A DNA stretch of 20,635 nucleotides, taken from IMG/VR virus record IMGVR_UViG_3300023110_000208, positions 1-20,635 of that record; one strand, given 5' to 3'. Source of the DNA: a virus. Position numbers and translations under genes: made by a program. The notes beneath the pieces were generated by a model, which was given only the letters and a program-made list of their open reading frames with translations, searched no databases and was not told where the DNA came from. Positions within the stretch are counted from its first letter, which is position 1, and each line of letters opens with the position of its first letter. Below, piece after piece: positions 5,879-20,437 of the stretch.

Positions 5879-6415
5879 TTAAACACAAACTTTCTCTAAT
5901 CTCTTTAGAGCATATATAAACAACTCATAACCTTCTTTAGGTTGATGCGTATATTCTACTTTAGCTTTTGCTGCATCAAACATTGACTTAATCAATCTCA
6001 TTTCAGCAAGAAGCTCTAGTTGAGTATCTGTAGGATCATAAGCACCTAGATCAATTTCACCTAGCTTATCATAGTAAAGATTCAAAGCTTGAGTCATTCT
6101 CAAGTGATTATATTCTACGTATACATATTCATTTGGAGATACACTATAGCGTACTACGTAAATACCATCACCTATTTCAGCTGAGGTTGTATCACAGCCA
6201 ATCTTTTGTACACCTAGGGTACAAGCATTAAGTACGTAGTTAAATCCAGCTACAGCGTCAATGTCCTGGGTTGAATTAAAACCAGGAGAAAGTATCTGTA
6301 AGGTAGGACACTCAATGCTTAAGTCTTTGCTGTAAGCACTAGTATCTACTACCCTAAAAAGTTTAGGATTAGTTGTTTCTAACACCTCTAAACTTAATTC
6401 ATGTTTTGTGGCCAT
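5879..6415 (-). CDS. Conserved phage structural protein, 178 aa
   Basis: The protein starts MATKHELSLEVLET, contains YVYVEYNHLRMTQALNLYY near residues 95-115 and ends in an amphipathic helical part with AAKAKVEYTH. I recall proteins of this type as conserved neighbours of structural genes in phages of Bacteroidota, without a defined role. It is the first gene after the terminator of the 368-residue gene and the head of the fibre cluster. The 5' region has TTTGATATAAA just after the terminator, a weak relative of the promoter-like motif here. A neck or tail-completion role is possible but is inference only. Confidence 0.6.
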   Translation of the reverse strand: MATKHELSLEVLETTNPKLFRVVDTSAYSKDLSIECPTLQILSPGFNSTQDIDAVAGFNYVLNACTLGVQKIGCDTTSAEIGDGIYVVRYSVSPNEYVYVEYNHLRMTQALNLYYDKLGEIDLGAYDPTDTQLELLAEMRLIKSMFDAAKAKVEYTHQPKEGYELFIYALKRLEKVCV

Positions 6416-6469
6416 AATAGTTATATTAATTAAGCAACTGGGCTCATAAATAATTTACTAAAAAATAAG

Positions 6470-6483: not shown

Positions 6484-6516
6484 AAAGGGGAGTAGAGATA
6501 AACCCCACTCCCCTTT
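6484..6516 (-). terminator. Intrinsic terminator after 368-aa gene
   Basis: A perfect 10-base-pair stem (AAAGGGGAGT paired with ACTCCCCTTT) with a 13-base loop is followed in the minus direction by TTTTTCTTTG. It lies 22 bases past the stop of the 368-residue gene, in a 122-base gap. The GC-rich stem and T tail make it the strongest terminator in the window. Confidence 0.85.
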
Positions 6517-6537: not shown

Positions 6538-7644
6538 TTAGTATACTTCTTTAACAATACCAGCTGCAGCAGCAAGAGCATCCATGTAAAGCTCTACATC
6601 AGAAGCTTGACCTGAACCTGCAGGAGCATAAATAGTCAACAAATATTGATCACTGTTGTGCATACCTGATGGATTGTAAGAACGTGGGATGCTGTGAAGA
6701 ATATTGAAAGCTTTGTAAGAAGCAGTACGATCTACTTCAAGAGCAATGCTATCAGTAATTTCACGCATACGTGGGTCACTGTTCCATGGTTCTTGTGCAT
6801 ATCTGTTAGAAAGAATAAACTCACGGATAACAGACTCACCAAAACCTTCACCTTGTGTTCCAGCAACTAGTACTGCATCATCAAAGTTGTTTACACAGAT
6901 ATCACCACTTTCATTCAATTCAGAAAGAAGAATCTGTACAGGCTCTTTTTCAAAGTGATCTTTAGGATCAAATGAACAGTCACCAAATTTAGTGTCAACG
7001 TAAGCACCTTTAAGTACCAAACGTGCAGAAGCATGAGCACCAGGAGCAGATCCTGCAGGAGCAGTTACTTTGTTCCATGCAGCACCATCAAATGTTTCTA
7101 CACTAGCTTCAACAAATGGTCCTACTAGAGGCTCATTCTCAATTTGAGAAGCCATCTCCAACAATACTTTAGCTGGCTCAACAGTAGCACCGTCAGCACA
7201 CTGTACAGTGTAATCAGCAACAAAGTAAGAGTTACGTCCTAAGAAACGTAGAGCAGGAGAACCTTTAATGTCTACACGCAAGAAAACAGTTTCACCTTTA
7301 GTAAATGTTTCTGGATCAGCTACTTCAATAACAGCAGAAGAAGAAGTAGCAACTTTAGATTCAACTTCCCAAATTTTAGAAATAAATTTAGGGTTGATAC
7401 CTTTAGACTTTACAGACTCTTGGTAACCACCATGGTGAGGACCAATTTTGTCTACACTGTGCAAGCTACCTTGCGCCAATGTGTAAAGACCTCCAGCTGC
7501 TACAGCACCAGGTGCTACAGAAACATAAGTTTTATCTAGAAGGGTCACTTGACCAGCACCTAGATCTTCAGAAGCTACACCACCCTGAACATCAGTGTCA
7601 CGGGCAATGAAGACTTTTTTGTAAGCATGGGGAAAATAAGCCAT
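6538..7644 (-). CDS. Abundant virion protein, possibly major tail protein, 368 aa
   Basis: The protein begins MAYFPHAYKKVFIARDTD and has a beta-rich, Gly/Ala-rich middle (LRFLGRNSYFVADYTVQC; NKVTAPAGSAPGAHASARL) with alpha/beta sequence at the end (YMDALAAAAGIVKEVY). No enzymatic motif is seen. It has its own promoter-like site, a 5' leader with a hairpin, and a strong terminator, so it forms a single-gene unit between the connector and the fibre genes. That arrangement suits a protein made in large amounts. A major tail tube or sheath-like subunit is my first guess from position. If the phage has a short tail, a decoration or other virion protein is the alternative. I do not recognise the fold from sequence. 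Confidence 0.5.
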   Translation of the reverse strand: MAYFPHAYKKVFIARDTDVQGGVASEDLGAGQVTLLDKTYVSVAPGAVAAGGLYTLAQGSLHSVDKIGPHHGGYQESVKSKGINPKFISKIWEVESKVATSSSAVIEVADPETFTKGETVFLRVDIKGSPALRFLGRNSYFVADYTVQCADGATVEPAKVLLEMASQIENEPLVGPFVEASVETFDGAAWNKVTAPAGSAPGAHASARLVLKGAYVDTKFGDCSFDPKDHFEKEPVQILLSELNESGDICVNNFDDAVLVAGTQGEGFGESVIREFILSNRYAQEPWNSDPRMREITDSIALEVDRTASYKAFNILHSIPRSYNPSGMHNSDQYLLTIYAPAGSGQASDVELYMDALAAAAGIVKEVY

Positions 7645-7680: not shown

Positions 7681-7700
7681 TGTAAAGCATTTGCCTTACA
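7681..7700 (-). promoter_or_regulatory. Hairpin in 5' leader of 368-aa gene
   Basis: On the minus strand TGTAAGGC and GCTTTACA form an 8-base-pair stem (one G-U pair) closing a 4-base loop, AAAT. It lies immediately downstream of the promoter-like site, so it would be at or near the 5' end of the mRNA. About 37 AT-rich bases then separate it from the ATG. A stabilising 5' stem is the simplest reading. Confidence 0.5.
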
Positions 7701-7716
7701 CTATAATATACAAAAA
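7699..7716 (-). promoter_or_regulatory. Promoter-like site P3 (368-aa gene)
   Basis: The minus strand reads TTTTTGTATATTATAGTG. The core TTTGTATATTA is identical at 12638-12654 and 20236-20250, and TAGTG follows here as at 12638. It starts a few bases past the stop of the connector gene. The TTTG recalls the 3' half of the Bacteroidota -7 element (TAnnTTTG), but no clear -33 TTG is visible, so a phage-specific motif is possible. Confidence 0.6.
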
Positions 7717-7719
7717 TTA

Positions 7720-8421
7720 TTATGTATTACGCTGTCCTGCAGCAATTTCTCTTTGGTAATTAGTTACATCCATAATATCACCAGCAATGATTGCTACAGC
7801 TTCATCAATAATGATTTCAGTAATATCGTCCTTAAACTCACAGGGTACATCTCCAGATGAGATGCTGCCAGTATAAGGATCTTTACATCCAGCAATTTCA
7901 ATGTTTCTAGGAGATCTGTAGTAAGTAAGTGTAGGTTTGTAGATCGTAAAATCAGAATTACTGAAGATTTTAATTCTTCCTCCACTAATAGTACAAATAG
8001 TTTCTCCCCAATCATAATCTGGCCGTTTTAAAGGATCTCTTAAAATGAGATCAATGTTAGCTTCTTCTACTAAATATGTAGTCATATCTCTAGGAGGGCA
8101 ACACTCAGTTTTAGCTAAAGTGCTGACCCTCTTAAAGGAGAGATAGTTATTGGGAAGAGAATTACTTACGTAAACATTATCAGACTCAATGCCTTGTAAA
8201 CCAGTTGTTTCTAACAGTTCTTGAAGATCATCAATAAGCATTTTACTTTGCTCATCCCCTTCTTTAAAAACATTGTTTCCATGAAGCTGACGTCTACACC
8301 ACTCAATCTGAGCTTTATTAAACGCTTCTACAATCTGCCAGCATTCTATATTATCATAGTCGTTACTAGCAAGCTTATTCAGCCTTTGCTTAAACTTAAT
8401 TTGTAGTGTAGTATTATTCAT
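7720..8421 (-). CDS. Probable head-tail connector (adaptor) protein, 233 aa
   Basis: The N-terminal half is helical (FKQRLNKLASNDYDNIECWQ; FNKAQIEWCRRQLHG), followed by a beta-rich part (GRIKIFSNSDFTIY; LTYYRSPRNIEIAGC) and a closing helix with EFKDDITEIIIDEAVAIIAG. Helical proteins of this length with an acidic final helix, encoded a few genes after the capsid gene, are typical of adaptor proteins that sit under the portal. I recall closely similar sequences in marine Bacteroidota phages, annotated only as structural. It starts five bases after the 41-residue gene and ends next to the promoter-like site of the 368-residue gene. The role is inferred from position and general layout. Confidence 0.6.
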   Translation of the reverse strand: MNNTTLQIKFKQRLNKLASNDYDNIECWQIVEAFNKAQIEWCRRQLHGNNVFKEGDEQSKMLIDDLQELLETTGLQGIESDNVYVSNSLPNNYLSFKRVSTLAKTECCPPRDMTTYLVEEANIDLILRDPLKRPDYDWGETICTISGGRIKIFSNSDFTIYKPTLTYYRSPRNIEIAGCKDPYTGSISSGDVPCEFKDDITEIIIDEAVAIIAGDIMDVTNYQREIAAGQRNT

Positions 8422-8426
8422 AGCTG

Positions 8427-8552
8427 TTAGCTACCACAAGCTTCACAATCTTCTGGATTTTCTAAATTACAACTAGGTTGCTCTTTGTTCGTTAATTCAT
8501 CTACAAAATCTGCAAATGAATCATCCAATTGAAAATCATCTTTTTCACTCAT
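8427..8552 (-). CDS. Small acidic protein with Cys-rich C-terminus, 41 aa
   Basis: ATG at 8552 to TAA at 8427 gives 41 residues; an upstream in-frame ATG at 8558 would add two (MTM). The first 30 residues are acidic (MSEKDDFQLDDSFADFVDEL) and the end carries three cysteines, CNLENPEDCEAC, followed by GS. It fills the gap between the 337-residue gene (stop 8566) and the connector gene (start 8421), with short spacers on both sides. Packing, composition and a sensible start support a real gene, though no family is recognised. The cysteines could bind metal or form a disulphide in the virion. Confidence 0.65.
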   Translation of the reverse strand: MSEKDDFQLDDSFADFVDELTNKEQPSCNLENPEDCEACGS

Positions 8553-8565
8553 GGTCATTTTATAT

Positions 8566-9579
8566 TTAGGAGTTCCACATTCCTTCTACATTACTCATCA
8601 GCTTCATCATCACCTCTTCATTGAGAGGGTTCTTTAAGAATGCTACTACATCTGAAGGAGTACGTCCTAAAGCTGTACCACTGTCTAGATCATAAATCAT
8701 ACCATCAGACTTAGTAGTAATCATTCTATACTGAGTTGCATCCTTAACAATAGCTTTCAACTTTAATGTCTCCATATCTAGTCTTGCAGCGTCTAAGAAT
8801 GTTTGAGCACTCTTTTTCTTATTTCTATCAACACCTAAACCGTTTACATAATTATCCATGTTTTCATAGATAATGTCATTAGGTGTTGTCTTAGTGTATT
8901 GTGTGCTATTAGCATCAACAACCTTAGCAACTAAGAACATTTTATTAGCTTGCTTATCGTACATTTTCTGTAACTCAGCTAATGCTTTGTTACGTAACTT
9001 AGAAATCTCTGTACGATTTGCAGCCGTTGTTTCCAATTTGTCAAGGAAGAATTTAGGTGGCGTTGGTTTACTCCTTGCATCTTCCAAACTTTTTGATACA
9101 ATTGAAAACCCTCCAGCTTCAATTGCATACAACTTAACCAAATCATAAGGATCTTTTACAGGATCCAAGAATACTGGGTCATTACCACACTTAAGTGAGA
9201 TTCTGCTCCAGAAATCATCATTATCTGGTCTTAGTAATTTTACTTCCTTCCAGAAATCTTTACTTTCAGGATCAATTACATTTGCTGCTAAGTCTTGCTC
9301 TAGTGAAGCAACTACTTCACGTATCTCACGAATCTTAGCTTCTCTTTCATCTGCAGGCAGAGTTTTAACTTCTGGTGCAAATTCATTTAGTCCAGTAACA
9401 TATCTCTTGATACCATTAATCTCTAAACAAGCAAGTTGCTCTTCATGGTATACACCATCCATTAGAGACATCTGATAATTCTCAAGACCCATGTTACCTA
9501 CACTAGGGTCAAAATAAGGTCTGATAGCAATTTTACCAGACTTACCAATTTGGTACTTTTCAATAATAGTCACACTCAT
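8566..9579 (-). CDS. Structural-cluster protein of unknown function, 337 aa
   Basis: The protein is largely helical and charged, with long Lys/Glu/Asp-rich stretches (ADEREAKIREIREVVASLEQ; RNKALAELQKMYDKQANKMF). It opens with a beta-like segment (MSVTIIEKYQIGKSGKIAIR). There is no transmembrane segment and no catalytic motif I recognise. It is the first gene after the terminator that follows the capsid gene, and its ATG is preceded by TTAAAACCAAAAAA. The position between capsid and connector points to an internal head, head-completion or assembly protein, but this is inference. A clear sign of a dedicated promoter is missing, so expression may depend on read-through from the capsid unit. Confidence 0.65.
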   Translation of the reverse strand: MSVTIIEKYQIGKSGKIAIRPYFDPSVGNMGLENYQMSLMDGVYHEEQLACLEINGIKRYVTGLNEFAPEVKTLPADEREAKIREIREVVASLEQDLAANVIDPESKDFWKEVKLLRPDNDDFWSRISLKCGNDPVFLDPVKDPYDLVKLYAIEAGGFSIVSKSLEDARSKPTPPKFFLDKLETTAANRTEISKLRNKALAELQKMYDKQANKMFLVAKVVDANSTQYTKTTPNDIIYENMDNYVNGLGVDRNKKKSAQTFLDAARLDMETLKLKAIVKDATQYRMITTKSDGMIYDLDSGTALGRTPSDVVAFLKNPLNEEVMMKLMSNVEGMWNS

Positions 9580-9671
9580 TTTTTTGGTTTTAAGTTAGTG
9601 TAATCTTGATGCTTGCCAGGGTTACCAGTCCTGATAAAGTAAGGTGTACAACAAGCAAATTAAAGAAGATT

Positions 9672-9693
9672 GGGAGAGGTTTTACCCTCTCCC
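9672..9693 (-). terminator. Terminator after major capsid gene
   Basis: GGGAGAGG and CCTCTCCC form a perfect 8-base-pair stem around a 6-base loop, 14 bases past the capsid stop. In the minus direction it is followed by AATCTTCTTTAATTTG, a broken T-rich stretch, so termination may be partial. Partial termination would let some transcripts reach the 337-residue gene. Confidence 0.75.
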
Positions 9694-9707
9694 TTCTACT
9701 ATTCTTC

Positions 9708-11327
9708 TTAGAATGATCCTCCTGTTACAGGGTTTCTCATTACAATCTTCAACACCTTAGTTGCATCTTTAACCCAGATAGCAGGCATTGTTTGTGTCAT
9801 GAATACACGGTATCCGTTAAAGTTACCAGAAGACTGGAATCCTTGTGAACGTCCCATGTAATCCATAGTACCATTTTGGTAGAACCACTTCAATTGGTTA
9901 TCCCAAGACAATTTCAACAAGTAAATATTGTCATTACCGTTTTCAGTAACATCAAATACTACAAAGCTGTAAGAGCTTAGTGGGTGACCATCTACTAGAG
10001 GGTTCTCAATGTCATTAGTATGCAAGTTATCAAACGCAGGGTTCAATACAAACTTAACGTTAGCCAAGAAAGGAATAACGTAAGAAGTGTAAGCAAAACC
10101 AAAGTTCAAGTCCATGTTGCTACCAGATACAGCACCAATGTCTGTAGCACGTACCAAAAGACCAGAAGCATTAGCTTCAGCTTTAATAGCTTCATTTACA
10201 AGCTTCATACCACCCATACCAGTTTGAACAATGATCTGACGCTGTGGATCTGGTCCAGCAAGCTCTACACGTCCTTGGTAGAAGTTCATCAATTCTGCTT
10301 TAAACATATCTAGAGAGAATCCAGACTTGTTGTATACACGCTTGAATGAGTTATCCAACTGCTTCCACAAACCTACAGATAGACGTACATCATCTGGTCC
10401 ATCCTGACGTACACGTCCACCATGACCCCACATTAAGTAAGTCTCAATATCTTTAGCAATCTTAGACAAGTGAGCAGCTTCCAAGTTAGTAACAAAAGTA
10501 CGGCTCAATGAACCATTCTCCATGCTACGCTTAACTGCATCTTTACCCATCTTAGAAACCATATCTTCCAAGCTAGTAATAGAAGGATCCATACTCTGAT
10601 CCATGTTACGCCAGATCTCAGTTACAGGAACTGTACCATCTGCACGCATACCACCTTTCATCATCATATCTGCACGTGAAGAAATGCTGTAGTGTACGTG
10701 AGCTTCTGCACCACCTACGTAGTTGTAGAACTCACGGAAACCAGTTGATACATCACCAATGTCAGAGAAACGCTCACCGTATTCACCTCTAGCAGAACCT
10801 TTACGGAAGAACTTAGTACCTGCAGCCAAGTACTTGTTGTCCAAGAATTTCAAGTTGTCATTGTTAACCAACTGTACAGTGTAGATGAATCCGTCACCTG
10901 AAGGAAGAATATCTTCTGCAGTTACGTATAATTCAGCTCCGTTGTACTTGTCGTAAGTAATGATGTCACCGTGACCAAATGCACGCTTGTTTACCTTAAT
11001 TTTAAAGGTAGTGCCATCAACACCTTTACGCTCATTGCTTGCTTCAATGTCTTCAGTGATGTAAGGAAGATCCTGTACTACAGGTACTTGCCATTTGTAC
11101 TCACCACGAGCATTATCAACAGTGATGGTATTTTTACCACCAAAAGATGCCATTTGGTATAGTGGCATTTCAACCTTTTGAGCCATAGCCCAAAGGTCTA
11201 CAGGGCCCATATCAGTTGGTTCTGCACTACCTAGCATATTTGCCAAGTGATAAGAATCAACATGAGATGACGCCTTGTAAGAAGTATCTCTCAAAAAGAT
11301 ACCATTGTTCAAAACAGGAGTTGCCAT
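9708..11327 (-). CDS. Probable major capsid protein, 539 aa
   Basis: It encodes a 539-residue protein starting MATPVLNNGIFLRDTSYKAS, without hydrophobic membrane segments and with mixed alpha/beta character. An extended region near residues 60-85 (FGGKNTITVDNARGEYKWQV) could be part of an HK97-type extended loop, and a long helical part with repeated MMMKGG/MEN/MVSKMG segments lies mid-protein. The case rests on position: directly after an acidic scaffold-like gene, two genes after the portal, and closed by a terminator as for a highly expressed gene. Length is within the range for large-phage HK97-fold capsid proteins. The fold cannot be proved from sequence by eye. Confidence 0.75.
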   Translation of the reverse strand: MATPVLNNGIFLRDTSYKASSHVDSYHLANMLGSAEPTDMGPVDLWAMAQKVEMPLYQMASFGGKNTITVDNARGEYKWQVPVVQDLPYITEDIEASNERKGVDGTTFKIKVNKRAFGHGDIITYDKYNGAELYVTAEDILPSGDGFIYTVQLVNNDNLKFLDNKYLAAGTKFFRKGSARGEYGERFSDIGDVSTGFREFYNYVGGAEAHVHYSISSRADMMMKGGMRADGTVPVTEIWRNMDQSMDPSITSLEDMVSKMGKDAVKRSMENGSLSRTFVTNLEAAHLSKIAKDIETYLMWGHGGRVRQDGPDDVRLSVGLWKQLDNSFKRVYNKSGFSLDMFKAELMNFYQGRVELAGPDPQRQIIVQTGMGGMKLVNEAIKAEANASGLLVRATDIGAVSGSNMDLNFGFAYTSYVIPFLANVKFVLNPAFDNLHTNDIENPLVDGHPLSSYSFVVFDVTENGNDNIYLLKLSWDNQLKWFYQNGTMDYMGRSQGFQSSGNFNGYRVFMTQTMPAIWVKDATKVLKIVMRNPVTGGSF

Positions 11328-11358
11328 GTTTATCTAAATTTAGGATTAGTAATTATTG

Positions 11359-12618
11359 TTAAAATCTTTTAAATATGTTAGTTGGTCTAGGAATACCTCT
11401 AGACTTTCTAATTTCTTTTTCTTCAGCTACACTTGAAGATTGACGTTTGCTTTGTTCAGTCTTCAATTGTCTTACAGTCTTCTCAACAGTTTCTGCTTTA
11501 GCTCCTTCTTTAATCTTACTATGGTAACCATCTCTATCAGATAGCAACCAAAGAGCTTCAGCAATTAACTCATGATTAGGCTCTACGTATTGATACTTTT
11601 CTAGCAAGTGACCCAGCATGTTAGTCTGTCTACCAGATACTGACTGATAATTAGGCTCTACTAGACCTTGGTATAATGTTGCTTGAGTTTTCTTATCAAG
11701 TTTAATACCGCCAAGCTCACCAGCTTTTAAAGTCTCATATACATTCTCCATATAGTTATTAGCGGCTTCAGCTTGTCTTTGCTTACGCTCCTCTTGTTCA
11801 GCAACTCTCTGCTGTACAATTTTTTCTTGCATTCTGTCCAACTTAGGTTTGAACTTATTTGCAAGCTGTTCTAGCCTACCAATATCTTTATAGGATTCAA
11901 TCTCTTCTTGAATTTCTTCTGCATCACCAAAACCAGTAGCTGAAAGATATTCTCTTACAATTACCTCTTGATCTTGTTCTACAGTAGGGTCTAATGATCT
12001 GGATTGTTCTACCTGCGCTAGTGCACTAAATAGTCCTTTAAGATCTTGACCGCCATTTGCTACATATTTAGCAGCATACTGAAGTTCTTCTGGCAATGAT
12101 TGAAAAAATTCTTGAGGTGTTTCTTCTCTTAGCTTACGTTCTCTTTCTTGAAAGTTAGCTTCAATTAGTTCTTGAAAGTCTTTAGCTGTATATTCTTCAA
12201 TTGGCTTATCATCTTCAAATGGAATTAACTTCTCATCTTCAATAAGCTTTGTAAATACATCAGCTACACCTTCAATCTTTTTACGACCTCTTTTCTTTTT
12301 AGGCTCATTATCTTCATCATCTTCATCAGATGACTCAACTTCATTTACTAAATCATCAAAAGATTCTTTTGACTCTTTAGCTTCAGGCTCTTCAGAAGAG
12401 TCTTCTACAGCTTCTGCTACAGGCTCATCTTCATCTTCACCATCAAGAAAAGACAAATCTGTCTTCTTATTTGAAAGAACGTTTGCAGTTTTATCTGCCT
12501 CTTCAGTAGGTACTGTTACAGACTCTGCACCAGGCATACCAAAGATTTCATCTAAGTCTACATCTACTTGCGTAACATTTGTAGACTCCTCTACGGGTGT
12601 GGTTTTTTCTTCACTCAT
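11359..12618 (-). CDS. Putative scaffolding protein, 419 aa
   Basis: The first 115 residues are very acidic and low in complexity (SFLDGEDEDEPVAEAVEDSS; SSDEDDEDNEP), followed by a basic patch KKKRGRKK. The middle and end are helical and coiled-coil-like (EKIVQQRVAEQEERKQRQAE), and the C-terminus is basic (RGIPRPTNIFKRF). Acidic, helical proteins with a basic tail encoded between portal and capsid genes are typical phage scaffolds, which fill the procapsid and leave on maturation. Its ATG is preceded by AAAACCAACAAAATT and by promoter-like site P2. The capsid gene follows after 31 bases with no terminator, so the two share an mRNA. Confidence 0.75.
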   Translation of the reverse strand: MSEEKTTPVEESTNVTQVDVDLDEIFGMPGAESVTVPTEEADKTANVLSNKKTDLSFLDGEDEDEPVAEAVEDSSEEPEAKESKESFDDLVNEVESSDEDDEDNEPKKKRGRKKIEGVADVFTKLIEDEKLIPFEDDKPIEEYTAKDFQELIEANFQERERKLREETPQEFFQSLPEELQYAAKYVANGGQDLKGLFSALAQVEQSRSLDPTVEQDQEVIVREYLSATGFGDAEEIQEEIESYKDIGRLEQLANKFKPKLDRMQEKIVQQRVAEQEERKQRQAEAANNYMENVYETLKAGELGGIKLDKKTQATLYQGLVEPNYQSVSGRQTNMLGHLLEKYQYVEPNHELIAEALWLLSDRDGYHSKIKEGAKAETVEKTVRQLKTEQSKRQSSSVAEEKEIRKSRGIPRPTNIFKRF

Positions 12619-12637
12619 AATTTTGTTGGTTTTCTCT

Positions 12638-12654
12638 CACTATTAATATACAAA
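12638..12654 (-). promoter_or_regulatory. Promoter-like site P2 (scaffold-capsid unit)
   Basis: The minus strand reads TTTGTATATTAATAGTG, containing the exact TTTGTATATTA core also found at 7699-7716 and 20236-20250. The distance from the core to the scaffold ATG is short, so the leader would be only about 25 bases. The upstream part of the site lies inside an inverted repeat. Confidence 0.6.
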
Positions 12655-12684
12655 TCTCCTTGGAATAAACCTTGGAGATTTGTA
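12649..12684. repeat. Inverted repeat overlapping promoter-like site P2
   Basis: Two perfect 11-base arms (TACAAATCTCC and GGAGATTTGTA) are separated by 14 bases. It lies in the 113-base gap between the portal stop and the scaffold start. The left arm includes the TTTG of the promoter core. It could be a terminator for the portal transcript, although no T-run follows, or a binding site for a protein that controls P2. Confidence 0.6.
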
Positions 12685-12731
12685 AAAACGTTATATAAAA
12701 AATGTGATTTTGAACAGTATATAGCTAAGAC

Positions 12732-15497
12732 CTATTCTTCTTTCTTATTAGATTTTCTGTTTGCAGAAAGATCATACTTATTTTTATTCTCTCTAGCAAT
12801 CTCTAACTGGGTATTTGCAATACGTTCTTTAGATTGAAACTCTTCTCTTTTCAAAGCAATATTCTGTTGCTGTATTGCTTTTTTATTGTTTTCAGCTTCT
12901 CTCTTTAATTCTGTCTGAGCTTGATATCTTTCAGTTTCTCTGATTTCTTTCAAAGCATCTTGATAATCTGAAACTTCATTTTTATTGATATCTTGCATTG
13001 CACCATATCCAGCTGCTCTAATTTCAGCTTGAATCAATCTGTTTTGACGATCCTTATCATTTTGATCAGCCTCAAACTGTCTAGCCATTTCTTTTTCTTG
13101 AGCTTCTGCTTGAAGTCTTTGTTGCTCCATTTGCATAGCTTGCTGCTGTTGCTCTTGACGTTGTTGAATTTGCTTTTGCTCAGCATCTTTCATAATATCA
13201 GTAACTTCAGCAATACTATCTGATTTAATAATATTACCAAGGTCATAAATACTAGCACCAGTAGTATTATTAGTAAGAGCCATTTGCTTAAGCTGTTCAA
13301 GAATTCTTCTATGATTAGCTTTAGTAGTACAGAAAATGTTAAAGTCTCTTAGCAATAAATCTCTACCATTAATACTAAAGTTTATTTTTTCATCATTAGA
13401 TGTAATATACTGAAGTCTAACAGAAGGATTATTACTATGATAATATTGAGCCAAGTCTGTACGCATTTGATGTACTCTAGGCATTAGATGATCAGAATGC
13501 TGAATAAAGTATGATTCAGTCTGAGCATAAGAACTCTCTAAGGATGCTTGTACACCTGTAGCAGTTTGTTGTTCCATAGCACCACCTAAACGCTGTGCAT
13601 TTACACCAATAGATTCAAATGCTTGATTCTTAAAGTAGTTAGCAAGTTGAGTTCTAGAAAGCAATCTATTAGTCTGCTCTAGATTTAACACCTGATAGTG
13701 CTGGAAGTTAAGAGCATTCTCTGTATTAGTAATAGATGTATCAAGAGGAAGCATTTGGAAGTCCTTCATTGCTACATATGCTTTAGCCAAATTATTCTTA
13801 CCCCAGTCTTCCCCTAGTGAGTGACGAGGAATAGCATTTTGGTCAAGCATAATTACTGTACCTAATTCATCTACAAGAATATCAGCAATCTGATTGTTTA
13901 CAATATTATATCCAATTTGATATGGCTTCATCAAATCTACTAGAGATACAGATTTTGTATTTCTATCAGAGAATACAGCTCCTTCTACAGGTAGCTTACA
14001 ACCATATAATGTTTGATCTCCTTTAAATTGGAATTTAAGTCTTCCTGGTTCGGGTCTATCAATACCTAAGTAGATAGCTTCAATACCATCTGGTGAAGTC
14101 ATACCCCAATATGTAGGATGATTAGGTCCAATTTTAACACCACCCCAAACTTCATTAATCCAAATCCAATCAATATGATCACCAAAGATTACACTCTCTT
14201 TAGTTTTCTGCTTAGATGATGTAGTATTATATAAAGGTTTATCAACTACAGTATAGTTATCAGTAACAATATCTTGAATAACAGTACCATCTTCTAAAAC
14301 CTTTGTAAGATGACCCACACGTCTTTGAGTTTTCCAATATACAGTAGAAACTCTTAACATGAATGTATTACCAAAATCAAACAAGTCTTCTGACTCACCA
14401 AGAATCCAATCTACAATATCACCACCAGCACCTAAACCTAGTTCAGTATGTGCCATAAATTGACGGTAACCTAAAGAACCGTTTTCAATACTATTCCATT
14501 CTGGAGATCTAGTACCATCATAAAAAGATCCATCATTAGGAATACCTGGAATAGCATAACCTGCAGAACGTGCAGGATAAACTTCTTCTAGTTCTTTAAT
14601 TTGATCCTCTGTCATTAAGTAACCATACTTATCAATGACATCAGCAACCGTCATCATATCTGATTTACCAACCCAGTTAGCTTGTGAGATATAACGCACA
14701 TCTGGAGACTTATGATAGAATGTAAGAACAGGATTCCACAGTTCAATATCATAATCATCTTCTCCCATACGGAAATGCCAGAACTCTCTATCTGTAATGA
14801 GCATATCTTTAAATGCACGTTCTTCAAGCTCATACATTTTAAAACGCTCTTCATCTACTTTAGTCTGATGCATTGCCCATTCTTCAACCATAGATCTATA
14901 ATCTTTACGGAAGAAGTCTTCAATTTCTGGAAGAGTTTTAAGATTTTGTTTAGAAAGCATTTGCTGAATTTCAGGATTCTGAAAATCTGCACCCTGCTGA
15001 GCTAACTTAGTAAGAATCTTAGAAGCTGCATCAGCTAATAAAGTTTCTTCTATCATTGCTCTTTTCTGCTCTAAGAGCTCATTATAAGAAGTATCATCTA
15101 CTGCACGAAAAGTAACTCTTGCATACTTAGATGCAAACTCCCCCATAAGAACATTGATAACATTTGGGATAATTGGGTAGAATTTGAGTTCTAATGCAGA
15201 TACATCTTCTTGGGTCAATTGGTCTACTAAATCAGCATAAAGGTTATCTTCTTCTACAATGTAGTCAGTTTTATCAATGATACCTTTAGCCAGCTTATAG
15301 TTCTTAAGCAAACGTCTAGAGTTTCTCTTAAGTTGCTTCTGACCTTGTACTTCAATCCAGTCTATGTTCCATGCAGCCCACTCCTTATCTTTCTTCTTTT
15401 CTGGAAGAAATTGTGTAGGCTGTTCAAGGGTGCCCATTTTATTTTTCTCTACCCTTGCACCGGCCTTAGCCTGCATTGCATTTATAATCTTAGGCAT
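12732..15497 (-). CDS. Portal protein, 921 aa
   Basis: The position directly after the large terminase and before scaffold and capsid genes marks this as the portal, the 12-subunit ring through which DNA enters the head. The N-terminal 500 residues are alpha/beta (YPIIPNVINVLMGEFASKYA; FWHFRMGEDDYDIELWNPVL). A long helical part follows (VDLMKPYQIGYNIVNNQIAD; LARTQ-like segments near residue 620). The last 150 residues are Gln/Glu/Lys-rich coiled coil (QQRQEQQQQAMQMEQQR near 775). At 921 residues it is long for a portal; such length with a Gln-rich end is known in crAss-like phages, where the C-terminal helices form the barrel. The ATG lies one base after the terminase stop. Confidence 0.85.
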   Translation of the reverse strand: MPKIINAMQAKAGARVEKNKMGTLEQPTQFLPEKKKDKEWAAWNIDWIEVQGQKQLKRNSRRLLKNYKLAKGIIDKTDYIVEEDNLYADLVDQLTQEDVSALELKFYPIIPNVINVLMGEFASKYARVTFRAVDDTSYNELLEQKRAMIEETLLADAASKILTKLAQQGADFQNPEIQQMLSKQNLKTLPEIEDFFRKDYRSMVEEWAMHQTKVDEERFKMYELEERAFKDMLITDREFWHFRMGEDDYDIELWNPVLTFYHKSPDVRYISQANWVGKSDMMTVADVIDKYGYLMTEDQIKELEEVYPARSAGYAIPGIPNDGSFYDGTRSPEWNSIENGSLGYRQFMAHTELGLGAGGDIVDWILGESEDLFDFGNTFMLRVSTVYWKTQRRVGHLTKVLEDGTVIQDIVTDNYTVVDKPLYNTTSSKQKTKESVIFGDHIDWIWINEVWGGVKIGPNHPTYWGMTSPDGIEAIYLGIDRPEPGRLKFQFKGDQTLYGCKLPVEGAVFSDRNTKSVSLVDLMKPYQIGYNIVNNQIADILVDELGTVIMLDQNAIPRHSLGEDWGKNNLAKAYVAMKDFQMLPLDTSITNTENALNFQHYQVLNLEQTNRLLSRTQLANYFKNQAFESIGVNAQRLGGAMEQQTATGVQASLESSYAQTESYFIQHSDHLMPRVHQMRTDLAQYYHSNNPSVRLQYITSNDEKINFSINGRDLLLRDFNIFCTTKANHRRILEQLKQMALTNNTTGASIYDLGNIIKSDSIAEVTDIMKDAEQKQIQQRQEQQQQAMQMEQQRLQAEAQEKEMARQFEADQNDKDRQNRLIQAEIRAAGYGAMQDINKNEVSDYQDALKEIRETERYQAQTELKREAENNKKAIQQQNIALKREEFQSKERIANTQLEIARENKNKYDLSANRKSNKKEE

Positions 15498-15498
15498 G

Positions 15499-17703
15499 TT
15501 ATCTTATATTTTTAAAAGCGGAACGCTTTCCTTTACCTCCCATAATACCTTTACCTTTCCCTCCAATATGTCTAAAGGGACTCATATTTAATTTAGTCAT
15601 TTTCTGCGTATTATCCAATTTTACAGATGACTCATTATCAACTCTTTTAGCGTAACCTCTATTAGCTTGCTGTACTTTTGCAAATCCTATCAATGCTGCA
15701 AATGATACAAGTCTATCCACGTTAACACCAGGCTGATATGCCTGCATCTCTTTCATAAGCATGATGTCAGGTATACGTTCAACACCAAAGGTTCTTTTTA
15801 ATATAGTACCATCGGTGTCAGTTTCAATATCTATTTCTTCTTTTAAATACTCAATTGCATAGTTAATTAAGTGAGACTTAAACAGTGTACCAGTATTTTT
15901 CCAACCATACTCAGCATATACACTTCTATTACTACCTAAGTCTTTAAGAAACAGAACCTGATCTTTAGGTACTAACCATTTTTGTTTACGCTTTGCAATC
16001 ATGTATTGAATAAATAAAGATACGTTATTCTCTACTAGTGTCCAGGCTTTATAATATTCAATAATTTTTTCTAACTGCTCGTGTGTCTTATTAATATCAT
16101 CATATCTACCACACCATGCAGCCACAATGCCATCACCTTCTACAAAGCTCTTAGGTCCCTCGTCAGTAATCTTTGTTACCTCTACTGGATTCTTATATAC
16201 ATAGATACTACAAAGTGACTCAGAAGTGGTTGTTTTACCTTCTCCAACAGGATCCACACTTGCATAGTACATTCCAAACTCAGGCTTATCTACAGGTCTT
16301 TCATAAACACATAGTACACCTGTTTTATCTTCTTGACGTTTATCTACAGGAAATGTATTAATAGGCTGCTTTCTGCTTTTATGAGCTATAACATCTGTAC
16401 CATTCTCTGCCCACTCTAGTTCTAAGTATTCTACTGGATACTCTTTATCTTCAATACGTTGTGTTTGTGAAGATATAAGGTTTTGAGGGAAGAGTGACTC
16501 TTTACGATAAGCAAACGCCTCTGCAATATTTGTTGGTTTTTGAGAAATTCTCAATTGATATTGCTCAGGACTTAAATCTCTTTTCCATGTTGCTCTCTCT
16601 TCCTGAATAGCTTTCAATGATTCTTCTACTAATGAGTTACCCCACTCATCAATAAAAGGCGGCATTGACCACTGTTCAGGTATAAAGAGTCCCACTTCAC
16701 CTCTACTACCTTTTTCATCTAGCAGGTTGGTTTGTACTGCGTAGATGTCATTTGATTTTGGATTAAGTACCATTTGTTTCAGCGGCTCACACTGATCCAA
16801 ATCACCCACTGATCCTGCTGCAATGAACATACCAGTAGTTATTTGACCTGACGACATTGCAGGTCTTATGTATTCATATGTCTGATCCATCTTAGGAGCA
16901 ATACCTGCTTCCTCATGAAAGAAATAAGTTACAGGACCCCCTACACCTTTGGTTGCATTCTTTTCAAAAGACATACCCTGTATCTTAGACATCAGACCTT
17001 TATTAGTCTTTCTACCATTTATAGATACTTCAATTTTTTGCTCCCAAAGTAGCGTCTTATCTGGGTTTGCTGGTCTATACCAAGCAGTATGTTCATTCAA
17101 AAAGTTCTTATATTCATCTAAGAATTTCCAAGTACCTTCATCATTCACATAAGATTTCAAAGAAGCTCCCATCTTAAGGATGGCACCCTCTTCAAACCAA
17201 TAAGTATTTATTAGTTTACCTGCATGAAAATATGACGATGCTATCTGACGTTTTTTCAGAATAGCAGAATGTTTGTAATTAGCTTCTGCCAACCATTCAT
17301 ATAAGGCCATGTGATACTGAGCATCTCTAACCTTAGCAAAGCCATACTTCTTTTCTTCTTTATCATAGATTGGTAAGAAATTTAACCACATGTAATAGTC
17401 TCTAGTAAGATACCATGTGTCATTTGTCCCCTTTACTATAATACCATTTCTGCATTTATTTTTCTGATCATCCCAATATGCAATAAATTCTTTTGACATA
17501 AACGGAGCAGTACAATAAACTCCATATTTATTGAATTTACTGGCTTCAGAGTTAAACACTTCAGTCTCTTCAGTAAAATTATATAGCCCAGGTTCTTTAA
17601 AAAGTTCAGTTATAAACTTGACAAGTTCATTTTTATGTCCGAACTTTACCTCAGACCAGCTTTGGTCCTTACTATTATAACAAGGGATTAAGATATCAGA
17701 CAT
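15499..17703 (-). CDS. Terminase large subunit (TerL), packaging ATPase and nuclease
   Basis: ATG at 17703 overlaps the preceding stop as TGATG; a GTG at 17706 would add one residue. In 734-residue numbering the ATPase part has KKRQIASS at 150-157, a Walker A of the deviant type in which Lys opens the motif, as in lambda terminase. A Walker B segment YFFHEE lies at 260-265, with His before the catalytic Glu, and the coupling segment IAAGSVG follows near 294-300. The nuclease part shows SVDPVGEG (Asp near 484), LVENN (Glu near 558) and NVDRLVSFAA (Asp near 663), matching the acidic triad of RNase H-like terminase nucleases. It motors DNA into the head through the portal encoded next door and cuts it. 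Confidence 0.93.
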   Translation of the reverse strand: MSDILIPCYNSKDQSWSEVKFGHKNELVKFITELFKEPGLYNFTEETEVFNSEASKFNKYGVYCTAPFMSKEFIAYWDDQKNKCRNGIIVKGTNDTWYLTRDYYMWLNFLPIYDKEEKKYGFAKVRDAQYHMALYEWLAEANYKHSAILKKRQIASSYFHAGKLINTYWFEEGAILKMGASLKSYVNDEGTWKFLDEYKNFLNEHTAWYRPANPDKTLLWEQKIEVSINGRKTNKGLMSKIQGMSFEKNATKGVGGPVTYFFHEEAGIAPKMDQTYEYIRPAMSSGQITTGMFIAAGSVGDLDQCEPLKQMVLNPKSNDIYAVQTNLLDEKGSRGEVGLFIPEQWSMPPFIDEWGNSLVEESLKAIQEERATWKRDLSPEQYQLRISQKPTNIAEAFAYRKESLFPQNLISSQTQRIEDKEYPVEYLELEWAENGTDVIAHKSRKQPINTFPVDKRQEDKTGVLCVYERPVDKPEFGMYYASVDPVGEGKTTTSESLCSIYVYKNPVEVTKITDEGPKSFVEGDGIVAAWCGRYDDINKTHEQLEKIIEYYKAWTLVENNVSLFIQYMIAKRKQKWLVPKDQVLFLKDLGSNRSVYAEYGWKNTGTLFKSHLINYAIEYLKEEIDIETDTDGTILKRTFGVERIPDIMLMKEMQAYQPGVNVDRLVSFAALIGFAKVQQANRGYAKRVDNESSVKLDNTQKMTKLNMSPFRHIGGKGKGIMGGKGKRSAFKNIR

Positions 17704-18236
17704 CACATTTGATCATATGATAGATTTTGACCACCTCTAACAGATGACTTCTGCTCTTCTTGAAGATCTGAATAAGCTCCTTTAAAAGAATTTCTAATCT
17801 GTTCAAATTTAGCAGCTGCATTTACTATCTGATTAATATTCCCATCCCTTCCATGTTCTATAGGAGTTTTGATCATATAATCCGCTAGACGATCTAGCAT
17901 AGAAGCAATACCTTTATAAGCTCTATAGGTAGGTGTCTCATACATAAGGGCACAATTCTTAACCGCCTCTTTTATAGAGAGATCTTCAGGATCAAATTCA
18001 GAAAACTCTTCTCCTGTCCGTAACTCCCTAAGAATCAGTTCCTCCTTATCCCTATCAGGAATATTAAAGAAAGGATTCATATCAGGATTAGGACAAGTCA
18101 TATAAAATATATAAGCATATACATCCAGATGATCTTCAGGATATTCTTCTCTAATCACTTTTAAGAAGTTAAGAGTATAAGAATGTTCTGACGGAATAAC
18201 TGTCCCATTCTGAATATCAAATAGTTTTACTAGCAT
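17703..18236 (-). CDS. Conserved protein ahead of TerL, possible small terminase, 177 aa
   Basis: The protein starts MLVKLFDIQNG, contains YMTCPNPDMNPFFNIP near residues 49-64, and ends in a charged helical part with SVRGGQNLSYDQM. The stop overlaps the TerL start by one base and its own start overlaps the nuclease gene by seven bases, so all three are translationally linked. Small terminase subunits usually sit just before TerL and are of this length and largely helical, which makes the role plausible. However, I see no clear DNA-binding helix-turn-helix at the N-terminus. The family looks conserved in related phages, without established function that I can name. Confidence 0.5.
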   Translation of the reverse strand: MLVKLFDIQNGTVIPSEHSYTLNFLKVIREEYPEDHLDVYAYIFYMTCPNPDMNPFFNIPDRDKEELILRELRTGEEFSEFDPEDLSIKEAVKNCALMYETPTYRAYKGIASMLDRLADYMIKTPIEHGRDGNINQIVNAAAKFEQIRNSFKGAYSDLQEEQKSSVRGGQNLSYDQM

Positions 18237-19048
18237 TCTTGATTTTCTTTTAAATGTTTCAAAATGTTTGCCACCTCTTCTTTTAGATATGGTAGTTCGT
18301 AGTAAACTATATCTTCAATAACAGGATCTCCTTGAGGAGTACGGGCATAAATAGGGTACCCATTTGCGTCTTCCTCTTCTTTCTTAAACTTGACATGCTG
18401 TATAACTAGATTGCCAGGTTTAAGACGTCTATTATGCTTTAAGATAATATACATGTAAAGGGATAACTGTAAATTATAATGGTTTAAATTACAATCATCA
18501 AGGTGTGCTACAGGGGCTAACATCTTTTTAGATACACCTTCCCAGTTTACATAAGACTTGCTCTTAATCTCTTTGTTTGTTTTGTAATCTGTAATATGTA
18601 CATACCCATTTACAACTTCTACTAAATCTGACTGACCTGAAACGCCTGCAGATTTAAGATATACAAGTAGCTCTGGATATACACCATCTGTTAGTTTTTG
18701 AGATGGAGCAAACTTTTTATGACCTTCTATAATAGGTCTTACTATAGGTACTTCCTTGCCGTAACGTTCAATAGTACTGAACTCAAGGAGATCACTTTCA
18801 CGTTGGTTATGGTACCAATTACCTAATTCCATAGCTCTTTCTCCTTCTGCATCCCAGATTGATTTAATCTGATCAGGAGTTTTACCAAACCATTTAGACT
18901 TAGGACTTTTAGATACCTTTTCTGCAACACCGTCTCTATCAAAAGGTTGCTTAAATTTAGAAATGACAGATGTAGTGCTAGTCCAAATGATTGGCTCGCC
19001 ATCTATACTTTCATATTTGTGGTTCTCTTCTGTAAATACTACAGACAT
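18230..19048 (-). CDS. PD-(D/E)XK nuclease, RecB/Cas4-like, 272 aa
   Basis: The motif order matches RecB-type nucleases: His80 (GNWYH), Glu126 (YPE), Asp141 in SGQSDLVE, Asp154 and Lys156 in HITDYKTNK, and a QLSLY motif at 194-198 fitting QxxxY. These residues form the metal-binding active site of the PD-(D/E)XK superfamily, with exonuclease activity in many relatives. No cysteines are placed to hold an iron-sulphur cluster as in Cas4. It lies in the packaging operon just before the putative small terminase and TerL, so it could process replicated DNA before packaging or act in recombination. The fold call is strong; the substrate is inference. Confidence 0.8.
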   Translation of the reverse strand: MSVVFTEENHKYESIDGEPIIWTSTTSVISKFKQPFDRDGVAEKVSKSPKSKWFGKTPDQIKSIWDAEGERAMELGNWYHNQRESDLLEFSTIERYGKEVPIVRPIIEGHKKFAPSQKLTDGVYPELLVYLKSAGVSGQSDLVEVVNGYVHITDYKTNKEIKSKSYVNWEGVSKKMLAPVAHLDDCNLNHYNLQLSLYMYIILKHNRRLKPGNLVIQHVKFKKEEEDANGYPIYARTPQGDPVIEDIVYYELPYLKEEVANILKHLKENQEC

Positions 19049-19051
19049 AAC

Positions 19052-19327
19052 TTACCATTTTCCTTCTGGACACGTGTCCCCAACGCTGCGTGTCTTAAAT
19101 TCTAATGAGCATCCACAGCTACCGCAACAGGGTTGGGTACCAGGAGCAAAGCATTTAGTACCCTTTAAGTCTATAAGAGGACACTCCTTGCAAATACTCA
19201 TTCTTACTTCAGCTATCTTTTCTACATGATCAGTTTTAACCATATAGTTTTTAATACCTTCTAAGATTCTATGTCTTTTAGACCAAACCTCTTTAAGAAT
19301 CCTTACTGTTTTCTTTATTGAATTCAT
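19052..19327 (-). CDS. Cys-rich zinc-binding protein, 91 aa
   Basis: ATG at 19327 is preferred; a TTG at 19351 would add eight residues. The N-terminal 40 residues are basic and helical. The C-terminal half holds eight cysteines: CKECP, then TKCFAPG, QPCCGSCGCSL and DTCPEGKW. The spacing suits one or two zinc sites. I recall similar Cys patterns with PGTQPCCG and KTRS in proteins of Bacteroidota phages, with unknown role. It overlaps the end of the HU-like gene by 35 bases and ends three bases before the nuclease gene. A DNA-binding or partner role in the nuclease/packaging module is possible but not shown. Confidence 0.7.
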   Translation of the reverse strand: MNSIKKTVRILKEVWSKRHRILEGIKNYMVKTDHVEKIAEVRMSICKECPLIDLKGTKCFAPGTQPCCGSCGCSLEFKTRSVGDTCPEGKW

Positions 19328-19670
19328 TCTTATTGGTATTAAGTTTTTCAAACTTTTCTTCTAGTGCTTTGAGCTTAACTAAATCTGTACTATTTTTTCT
19401 AAAAGAGTCATACTTAGTAAACTCATGAGGATTAAGCTTAGTCAAAAGATTTTCCTTATCCTGGATCAACTTTCTAACTTTCGCTCTCCTGGCTTTAAAA
19501 GTACCTAGCTTAGGTATTAGTATACTTGTATCCTCTAATGACGACAGAGCCCTTCTAACACGGCTGTAAAAGAAGCTTATTGCGTCTGATACAAGTTCTT
19601 CATTCCAGTTATTCTCTTCTACAAGCTTACTGGTTATCTCTTTGTACTTCTTCGGCTTCAACTGCAACAA
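19293..19670 (-). CDS. HU/IHF-like DNA-binding protein, up to 125 aa
   Basis: The first 48 residues form two helices (YKEITSKLVEENNW; VSDAISFFYSRVRRALSSL) followed by a strand-turn-strand with TSILIPKLGTFKARRAKVRK. The LGTF followed by a basic strand is the hallmark of the HU/IHF dimer body. The usual long beta-arm is replaced by a charged helical tail of about 55 residues. No ATG exists in the frame; TTG codons at 19670, 19667 and 19661 are possible starts, and the start overlaps the upstream gene by 35-44 bases. HU/IHF-like genes are known in the structural region of crAss-like phages. Here it may bend or compact DNA for packaging. Confidence 0.6.
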   Translation of the reverse strand: MLQLKPKKYKEITSKLVEENNWNEELVSDAISFFYSRVRRALSSLEDTSILIPKLGTFKARRAKVRKLIQDKENLLTKLNPHEFTKYDSFRKNSTDLVKLKALEEKFEKLNTNKNEFNKENSKDS

Positions 19671-20019
19671 ATTTAAAATCTAATAATACAGTTCCGTTGA
19701 CCTGTATATTCAGCGTATCATTCAAACGAATGGTTTTACGACCTTTTCCTTGTTTAACAAGCAGGTTCTTCTTCTCTGCTTTATTAATAGCGTTACGTGC
19801 TGACTGAGGAGTCTTAAATATCTTAAGCTCTGCAACTCTATTACAAAAAGAAGTAAGCTCTTCTTGCTCTGATAAACCTAATTCAGTAAGACATCTAAGA
19901 TCTGACTCACTAACTTGGATGTTATTCAGAAAGCAATGAGTCAAAATTTGGTATTTAACCACATCTCTCTTATCAAGCTTTACCCTTTTATCTACCTTAT
20001 TCACTAGCATTTTCAACAT
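19627..20019 (-). CDS. Winged-helix-like DNA-binding protein, 130 aa
   Basis: ATG at 20019, with a second ATG at 20010, opens a 130-residue frame that overlaps the preceding gene slightly. The N-terminal third is basic (KVDKRVKLDKRDVVKYQIL). The region FKTPQSARNAINKAEKKNLL followed by VKQGKGRKTIRLND has the helix-turn-wing pattern of winged-helix proteins, with a basic hairpin as the wing. The end is beta-rich and acidic. I do not recognise the exact family. Candidate roles are a regulator of the structural genes or a DNA-recognition factor for packaging. Confidence 0.55.
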   Translation of the reverse strand: MLKMLVNKVDKRVKLDKRDVVKYQILTHCFLNNIQVSESDLRCLTELGLSEQEELTSFCNRVAELKIFKTPQSARNAINKAEKKNLLVKQGKGRKTIRLNDTLNIQVNGTVLLDFKFVAVEAEEVQRDNQ

Positions 20020-20212
20020 CTTCCTCTGATTGGGTCATTTGCAATACATATGCATCAGCTTGCAGTCTTTCTGCACGAGCTTTTGATATATCTCTAAGCA
20101 ATTGTTCATATTCTAACTGCTTTGTTAGATACTCTACTTCTGTAGTATAAAACGCATGTAATTTTTCTTTACGTTCTGCGTATTCTTCTTCTGACATATT
20201 ATTATCTGCCAT
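19997..20212 (-). CDS. Small coiled-coil protein, 71 aa
   Basis: The start is ATG at 20212 (MADNNMSEEEYAERKEKL); a further-upstream TTG at 20248 falls inside the promoter-like motif and is unlikely. Nearly the whole chain is a charged helix (VEYLTKQLEYEQLLRDISKA) with an acidic end (SEEDVENASE). It is the first gene of the packaging unit, and the leader AAAACCAACAATC precedes its ATG. Small proteins of this kind recur at this place in related phages to my recollection, without defined function. Oligomerisation through the coiled coil is likely. Confidence 0.7.
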   Translation of the reverse strand: MADNNMSEEEYAERKEKLHAFYTTEVEYLTKQLEYEQLLRDISKARAERLQADAYVLQMTQSEEDVENASE

Positions 20213-20235
20213 GATTGTTGGTTTTAAGTTTACAA

Positions 20236-20250
20236 TACTAATATACAAAA
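20236..20250 (-). promoter_or_regulatory. Promoter-like site P1 (packaging unit)
   Basis: The minus strand reads TTTTGTATATTAGTA, sharing the TTTGTATATTA core with the sites ahead of the scaffold and 368-residue genes. About 24 bases separate it from the ATG of the first gene. It sits in the divergent region between the minus-strand cluster and the two plus-strand ORFs. Confidence 0.6.
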
Positions 20251-20290: not shown

Positions 20291-20437
20291 ATGGAAGAGA
20301 TCTATACAGTTATTCAATCTACAGGAGTATATCCAGAATGGTTTACTACAACCACAGCTCCATTGAACCTAACACTCAACTATTATACAAAAGATGAAGT
20401 ATCTTTTTATACTGATTACTTTAGTCAGCACATATAG
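20291..20437 (+). CDS. Hypothetical small ORF, 48 aa
   Basis: ATG at 20291 to TAG at 20435-20437 encodes 48 residues starting MEEIYTVIQSTGVYPEW. It is rich in Thr and Tyr with no recognised motif. It reads away from the structural cluster, and its end overlaps the signal-peptide ORF by 44 bases. That long overlap and the lack of a family make it uncertain; the stretch could instead be leader sequence for the next ORF. Confidence 0.35.
   Translation: MEEIYTVIQSTGVYPEWFTTTTAPLNLTLNYYTKDEVSFYTDYFSQHI

Follow-up and report, generated by a model that had tools for sequence, protein, structure and literature searches.

The stretch of DNA analysed here (the window, 20,635 bp) is the entire IMG/VR record IMGVR_UViG_3300023110_000208, and no additional genome sequence belongs to it. 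It represents part of a crAss-like phage genome: a crAss-type major capsid protein (Crass_capsid match PF23898, E 2e-31), terminase and portal (phrog_6681 and phrog_6547) are present in the usual Crassvirales order. Compared with phage records, the terminase found its best relatives at 23–25% identity, mostly in crAss-like phages, and it is 22–24% identical to those of the cultured crAss-like phages phi14:2 and crAss001; the phage collection searched included no isolate from this clade. The closest near-full-length relative, of 103.8 kb and with 90% identity in the terminase, encodes a giant virion RNA polymerase (vRNAP) of 2929 aa, with the catalytic DxDxD motif as GSDFDIDK; this enzyme was seen in relatives only, the window ending short of the vRNAP region. 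A late-arm protein of the same relative (L163:12593-13954) matches DUF5872 and DUF5754. Among GTDB genomes, the sole match was one contig with a terminase relative (71%; L216) that was binned into a Campylobacteraceae MAG, probably in error, and it was not taken as indicating the host.

The genes and putative control elements discussed below all lie on the minus strand (Table 1). Between the HU-like gene and an exonuclease gene there is in addition a small Cys-rich protein (window 19052-19327, minus strand; C..CP...CC..CGC.L...CP.GKW), about 45–60% conserved across the clade and without a Pfam match. Directly upstream of promoter 2 we observed an inverted repeat, CAAATCTCC...GGAGATTTG (window 12651-12682, minus strand; TTTG is common to both), whose arms show compensatory changes in close relatives (L081-L089), namely CTCCAAGG/CCTTGGAG, CTCTGAGG/CCTCAGAG and CTTCAAGG/CCTTGAAG; it is a putative operator, terminator or processing hairpin.

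Table 1. Predicted promoters, RNA elements and genes of the window, with window coordinates.
Feature	Position	Strand	Sequence	Details
Promoter 1, ahead of g83 operon	20233..20250	-	TTTTGTATATTAGTATTG	11-mer 20239-20249; 25.4 bits; predicted +1 G 20233; ATG 20212; leader about 21 nt
Promoter 2, ahead of scaffold-position and capsid genes	12638..12655	-	ATTTGTATATTAATAGTG	11-mer 12644-12654; 17.4 bits; predicted +1 G 12638; ATG 12618; leader about 20 nt
Promoter 3, ahead of 368-aa gene	7698..7715	-	TTTTGTATATTATAGTGT	11-mer 7704-7714; 14.8 bits; predicted start about 7700-7698; ATG 7644
Promoter 4, ahead of 178-aa gene	6445..6462	-	TTTAGTAAATTATTTATG	not caught by exact word; 17.6 bits; predicted +1 G 6445; ATG 6415
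Hairpin	7681..7700	-	TGTAAGGC-AAAT-GCTTTACA	predicted 5' end of 368-aa gene mRNA
Intrinsic terminator	6484..6516	-		after 368-aa gene; immediately precedes promoter 4
g83, small coiled-coil gene	19997..20212	-		71 aa from ATG; first behind promoter 1
g130, candidate regulator	19627..20010	-		clade-conserved; predicted winged-helix fold (Zur/Fur-like DNA-binding domain)
HU/IHF-like protein	19293..19670	-		g83/g130 operon; weak PF00216
Scaffold-position gene	11359..12618	-		419 aa; first behind promoter 2
Major capsid gene	9708-11327	-		after scaffold-position gene
368-aa gene	6538..7644	-		behind promoter 3; without family match
178-aa virion structural gene	5879..6415	-		behind promoter 4; marginal PHROG match

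An initial annotation of this DNA had reported three exact minus-strand copies of an 11-mer, TTTGTATATTA, in gaps between genes, and this held, with coordinates shifted by a few bases. The word is expected 0.04 times per window, and three copies were reached in none of 100 dinucleotide-preserving shuffles; each copy is intergenic and precedes a minus-strand gene (the 368-aa, scaffold-position and coiled-coil genes). TAGTG does follow two of the copies, at spacings one base apart (TTTGTATATTA-TAGTG at 7704, TTTGTATATTA-A-TAGTG at 12644). The statement that there was no further copy was right for the exact word and missed a degenerate fourth member, TTAGTAAATTA (6451-6462, minus strand, with TATGAG downstream), which scored 17.6 bits with a profile built from relatives and precedes the 178-aa gene, where relatives likewise have the motif. 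One-mismatch words at 20381 (minus strand, 7.5 bits, within a plus-strand gene region) and 2611 (plus strand) look like chance occurrences.

Relatives were represented by 160 listed loci, out of a larger number that exist, with capsid or terminase relatives in two IMG/VR scans. In these loci exact TTTGTATATTA occurred 70 times on the coding strand vs. 4 times on the opposite strand, never inside homologous genes and mostly 34–85 bp ahead of orthologues of the same four genes, and with at most one mismatch it was found within 160 bp upstream of 15 of 55 g83, 38 of 131 scaffold-position, 19 of 56 368-aa and 21 of 46 178-aa orthologues, all of these counts being inflated by the relatedness of the phages. 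Best matches within 160 bp upstream of terminase, portal, capsid and other orthologues showed no enrichment. The closest near-full-length relative had 13 sites above 12 bits, all on the virion-gene strand and none on the opposite one. Across eight near-full-length relatives, TTNGTATATTA preceded 38 of the 185 late-arm genes, where 0.5 were expected, and none of the 144 early-arm genes. De novo motif discovery returned the same motif in 43% of late-arm regions, an unrelated seed included, and when directed at a separate early-arm promoter motif yielded intrinsic terminators only. Many intergenic gaps in the early arms of the L161-L211 genomes carry GC-rich hairpins with T runs (intrinsic terminators), very near the next start codon. 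An exact scan of 2.9 million IMG/VR viral contigs found the 19-base consensus TTTTGTATATTATNAATGTA in 60 places, 57 of them in contigs carrying clade proteins; 51 of these 57 had a same-strand gene within 150 bp. The open-access literature that we searched contained no description of crAss-like promoter motifs.

The family consensus, from 136 deduplicated sites, is TTnG-TATATT-AT-n3-T[G/A]TA, with each base of TATATT at 95–100%, the preceding G at 85%, T at position 16 at 89% and a purine at position 17 at 93%. Taking that purine as +1 places TATATT at -12 to -7, and the likely start is the G that lies six bases beyond the 11-mer. This assignment is supported by the leaders of two genes, where stems begin at motif positions 15–18 in 14 of 23 (368-aa) and 13 of 28 (178-aa) loci, compared with 5.7 +/- 2.1 and 4.6 +/- 1.9, respectively, in shuffles (maximum 11 in 200 for both); the stem sequences vary between phages and their start position stays the same. 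Stems starting at the predicted +1 were not found in the scaffold or g83 leaders. Shine-Dalgarno sequences are absent, like in Bacteroidota. A -33 element (TTG/TTTG) was entertained as a further part of the motif and rejected: the 136 sites owe most of their TTG enrichment at -35 to the terminator tail in front of the 178-aa gene, and the enrichment is not general, in agreement with the earlier remark that a host-type element is not evident there.

The Bacteroidota/Flavobacterium sigma-A promoter has a -7 box TAnnTTTG at -12 to -5 (PMC9723704). The predicted virion promoters share with it TA at -12/-11 and TT at -8/-7, in identical register, and differ from the host box in carrying AT or similar at -6/-5, never TG, and in having no general -33; their G(-13) and T[G/A]TA initiator are additions to the published host consensus. 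Counted with the relevant positions excluded from scoring, TG at -6/-5 was present in 8 of 10 sites of g83-operon promoters, which have the host-type TATATTTG corresponding to TAnnTTTG, and in 0 of 112 promoters of the three virion genes. The three copies first taken as one family thus stand as predicted promoters but fall into two classes, the operon at 20239 being host-type in relatives and the other two copies belonging to the virion class. In the window itself the box of promoter 1 is a hybrid, TATATTAG, where the orthologous promoters of relatives have TATATTTG, and the boxes of promoters 1–4 (TATATTAG, TATATTAA, TATATTAT and TAAATTAT) all depart from TAnnTTTG. The gene that precedes the vRNAP genes likewise shows both types: depending on the phage, it has TTTAGTATCTTTGTAAT just before its ATG or TATATT with the initiator. 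In several phages (L217-L231) TTTAGTAT[CT]TTTGTAAT lies immediately 5' of the ATG of this gene, and leaderless mRNAs from a host-type box would be implied. Upstream of early-arm genes TAnnTTTG occurs at about twice expectation. In g83 operons (e.g., L145, L100, L154) the host-type box is closely preceded by one or two copies, about 16 bp apart, of TAAACTTT, a possible regulator binding site; upstream regions of the late arm hold TAAACTT at about three times its genome-wide density.

The 11-mer family is real and in all likelihood functional, as a phage late promoter. The proposal of a phage promoter family, made originally from the window alone, is backed by conservation, strand bias, placement at operon heads, a lack of sites in the early arm and the starts of leader hairpins; that these are promoters is very probable, and that they act late is probable. 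Oriented intergenic elements of other kinds, be they operators or RNA-processing or packaging elements, would look alike by comparative evidence alone, and we consider them highly improbable here: the sites point toward their genes, a pyrimidine-purine step follows the -10-like TATATT at a set distance, a terminator lies directly upstream, and hairpins start at the predicted +1. The 11-mer would form the upstream half of late promoters in an environmental crAss-like clade, with TATATT in the -10 position, a T-purine step at -1/+1, and G(-13) plus the preceding Ts making an extended -10. Such promoters would launch separate transcripts of the virion operons (scaffold-position and capsid genes, the 368-aa gene, the 178-aa gene and, further on, tail and vRNAP genes) at a stage distinct from that of the replication genes, and the 5'-terminal hairpins of two of the four transcripts would probably protect the mRNA.

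As to what reads them, our best explanation, to which we give a probability of roughly 0.6, is a -10-type late promoter used by host RNA polymerase (RNAP) with phage-altered specificity. Late crAss genes are expected to use host RNAP (PMC10136315; PMC8375218), and this expectation, the register, the way the motif interchanges with host boxes and the lack of Shine-Dalgarno sequences together make the host enzyme the favoured reader; the register matches that of a sigma-A-type holoenzyme. With moderate confidence we propose a host core RNAP with phage-supplied or phage-modified specificity, which would have been moved off TAnnTTTG by an earlier-made phage factor or by phage modification of sigma. 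Altered specificity is favoured by a virion class devoid of the host TG and of a general -33, and the involvement of an extra phage factor has close to an even chance. Ordinary host sigma-A promoters, a lineage variant of TAnnTTTG for the unmodified holoenzyme, timed by an activator (e.g., g130) or by replication, would account as well for the common register, for the fact that orthologous g83 promoters and the gene preceding the vRNAP genes can have host-type boxes, and for the excess of TAnnTTTG upstream of early-arm genes; we nonetheless regard them as unlikely, given 0 of 112 for the host TG in virion-gene promoters, the missing general -33, and a G(-13) and TGTA initiator that are outside the published host consensus (PMC9723704).

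Reading by a phage RNAP, either the crAss vRNAP made in the cell or an unrecognised second enzyme, as at the TATATTAC- or TATATTAT-type promoters of the phiKZ group, seems quite unlikely to us. The motif is close to 201phi2-1 TATATTAC-DWHD-GTG and AR9 early AAATATATATTAT-6N-G (PMC7058600; PMC5312081), the closest relative encodes a protein in which the catalytic motif of crAss RNAPs, DFDID, is present, and newly made RNAP subunits possibly serve late genes (PMC8375218). Yet the motif is missing from the early arm, although the phi14:2 vRNAP serves early genes (PMC10136315), the vRNAP genes of the closest relative themselves lie behind such a site, the motif interconverts with host boxes, and a cellular-type beta-prime domain was not found: PF00623 had no match in 13 genomes and matched in 14 of 14 control genomes, a test that divergent phage subunits could escape. 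A search for T7-type RNAP matched neither the genomes nor its controls and carries no weight here. Evidence against altered host RNAP itself comes from the likeness to phiKZ-group promoters, the absence of the motif from phi14:2 and crAss001, and the lack of a match to a sigma-like protein. In the 13 genomes Sigma70_r2 had no match and Sigma70_r4 only two, both below threshold, which counts against a simple phage sigma, although a diverged gp55-like protein could escape this search.

The operon of promoter 1 encodes a candidate regulator, g130. AlphaFold2 predicted it (pLDDT 83.8) to be a winged helix, and structural comparison aligned the model with Zur/Fur DNA-binding domains at Z 12.0 and an rmsd of 2.5 over 89 residues; the best Foldseek E was only 0.009, and a Pfam search gave no confident match. 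Of 19 members of the HU/IHF-like protein from the same operon, 10 have a weak PF00216 match. Only position ties either protein to the late promoters. Further clade-conserved candidate factors are early-arm proteins of the closest relative, at 84230-84709, 84715-85254, 98262-98651 and 101385-101645. The switch of crAss phages from early transcription by an injected polymerase to transcription of virion genes is known, in the literature searched, only from broad time courses of two isolates. Comparative data now indicate a promoter class placed before virion-building genes and absent before replication genes in a large uncultured crAss-like group, and a clade-wide promoter with a predicted start, a host-type sister class and candidate factors makes the question of host vs. 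phage polymerase directly testable. In uncultured genomes the motif can also be used to mark late operons.

The clade resembles phi14:2 and crAss001 in its genome plan of a replication arm and a virion arm, in its vRNAP genes and in late genes thought to use host RNAP, and differs from these two cultured phages in the motif, which they have at control level only. T4 late promoters have a -10-only form, and like those described here they are a -10-type class for virion genes, separate from host promoters. Their sequence is different, and whereas T4 has gp55, a highly diverged promoter recognition subunit (PMC2988020), no sigma-family protein (Sigma70_r2/r4) was found in the 13 clade genomes. 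Early promoters of the phiKZ group (TATATTAC in phiKZ, and those of 201phi2-1 and AR9 given above; PMC7058600; PMC5312081) serve early genes through multisubunit phage RNAPs, unlike the sites in this clade, which serve virion genes, are upstream of none of the 144 early-arm genes and occur in 13 genomes in which no cellular-type beta-prime domain was found. Common to both are a near-identical TATATTA(T/C) core, the absence of a -35 and a fixed downstream G start. We tentatively suggest, at somewhat less than even odds, that this uncultured clade has its virion genes on -10-only promoters read by a phage-specific specificity, be it through a crAss-type phage RNAP or through an as yet undescribed protein that resembles or modifies sigma, in convergence with the phiKZ group, with the regulatory operon kept host-type.
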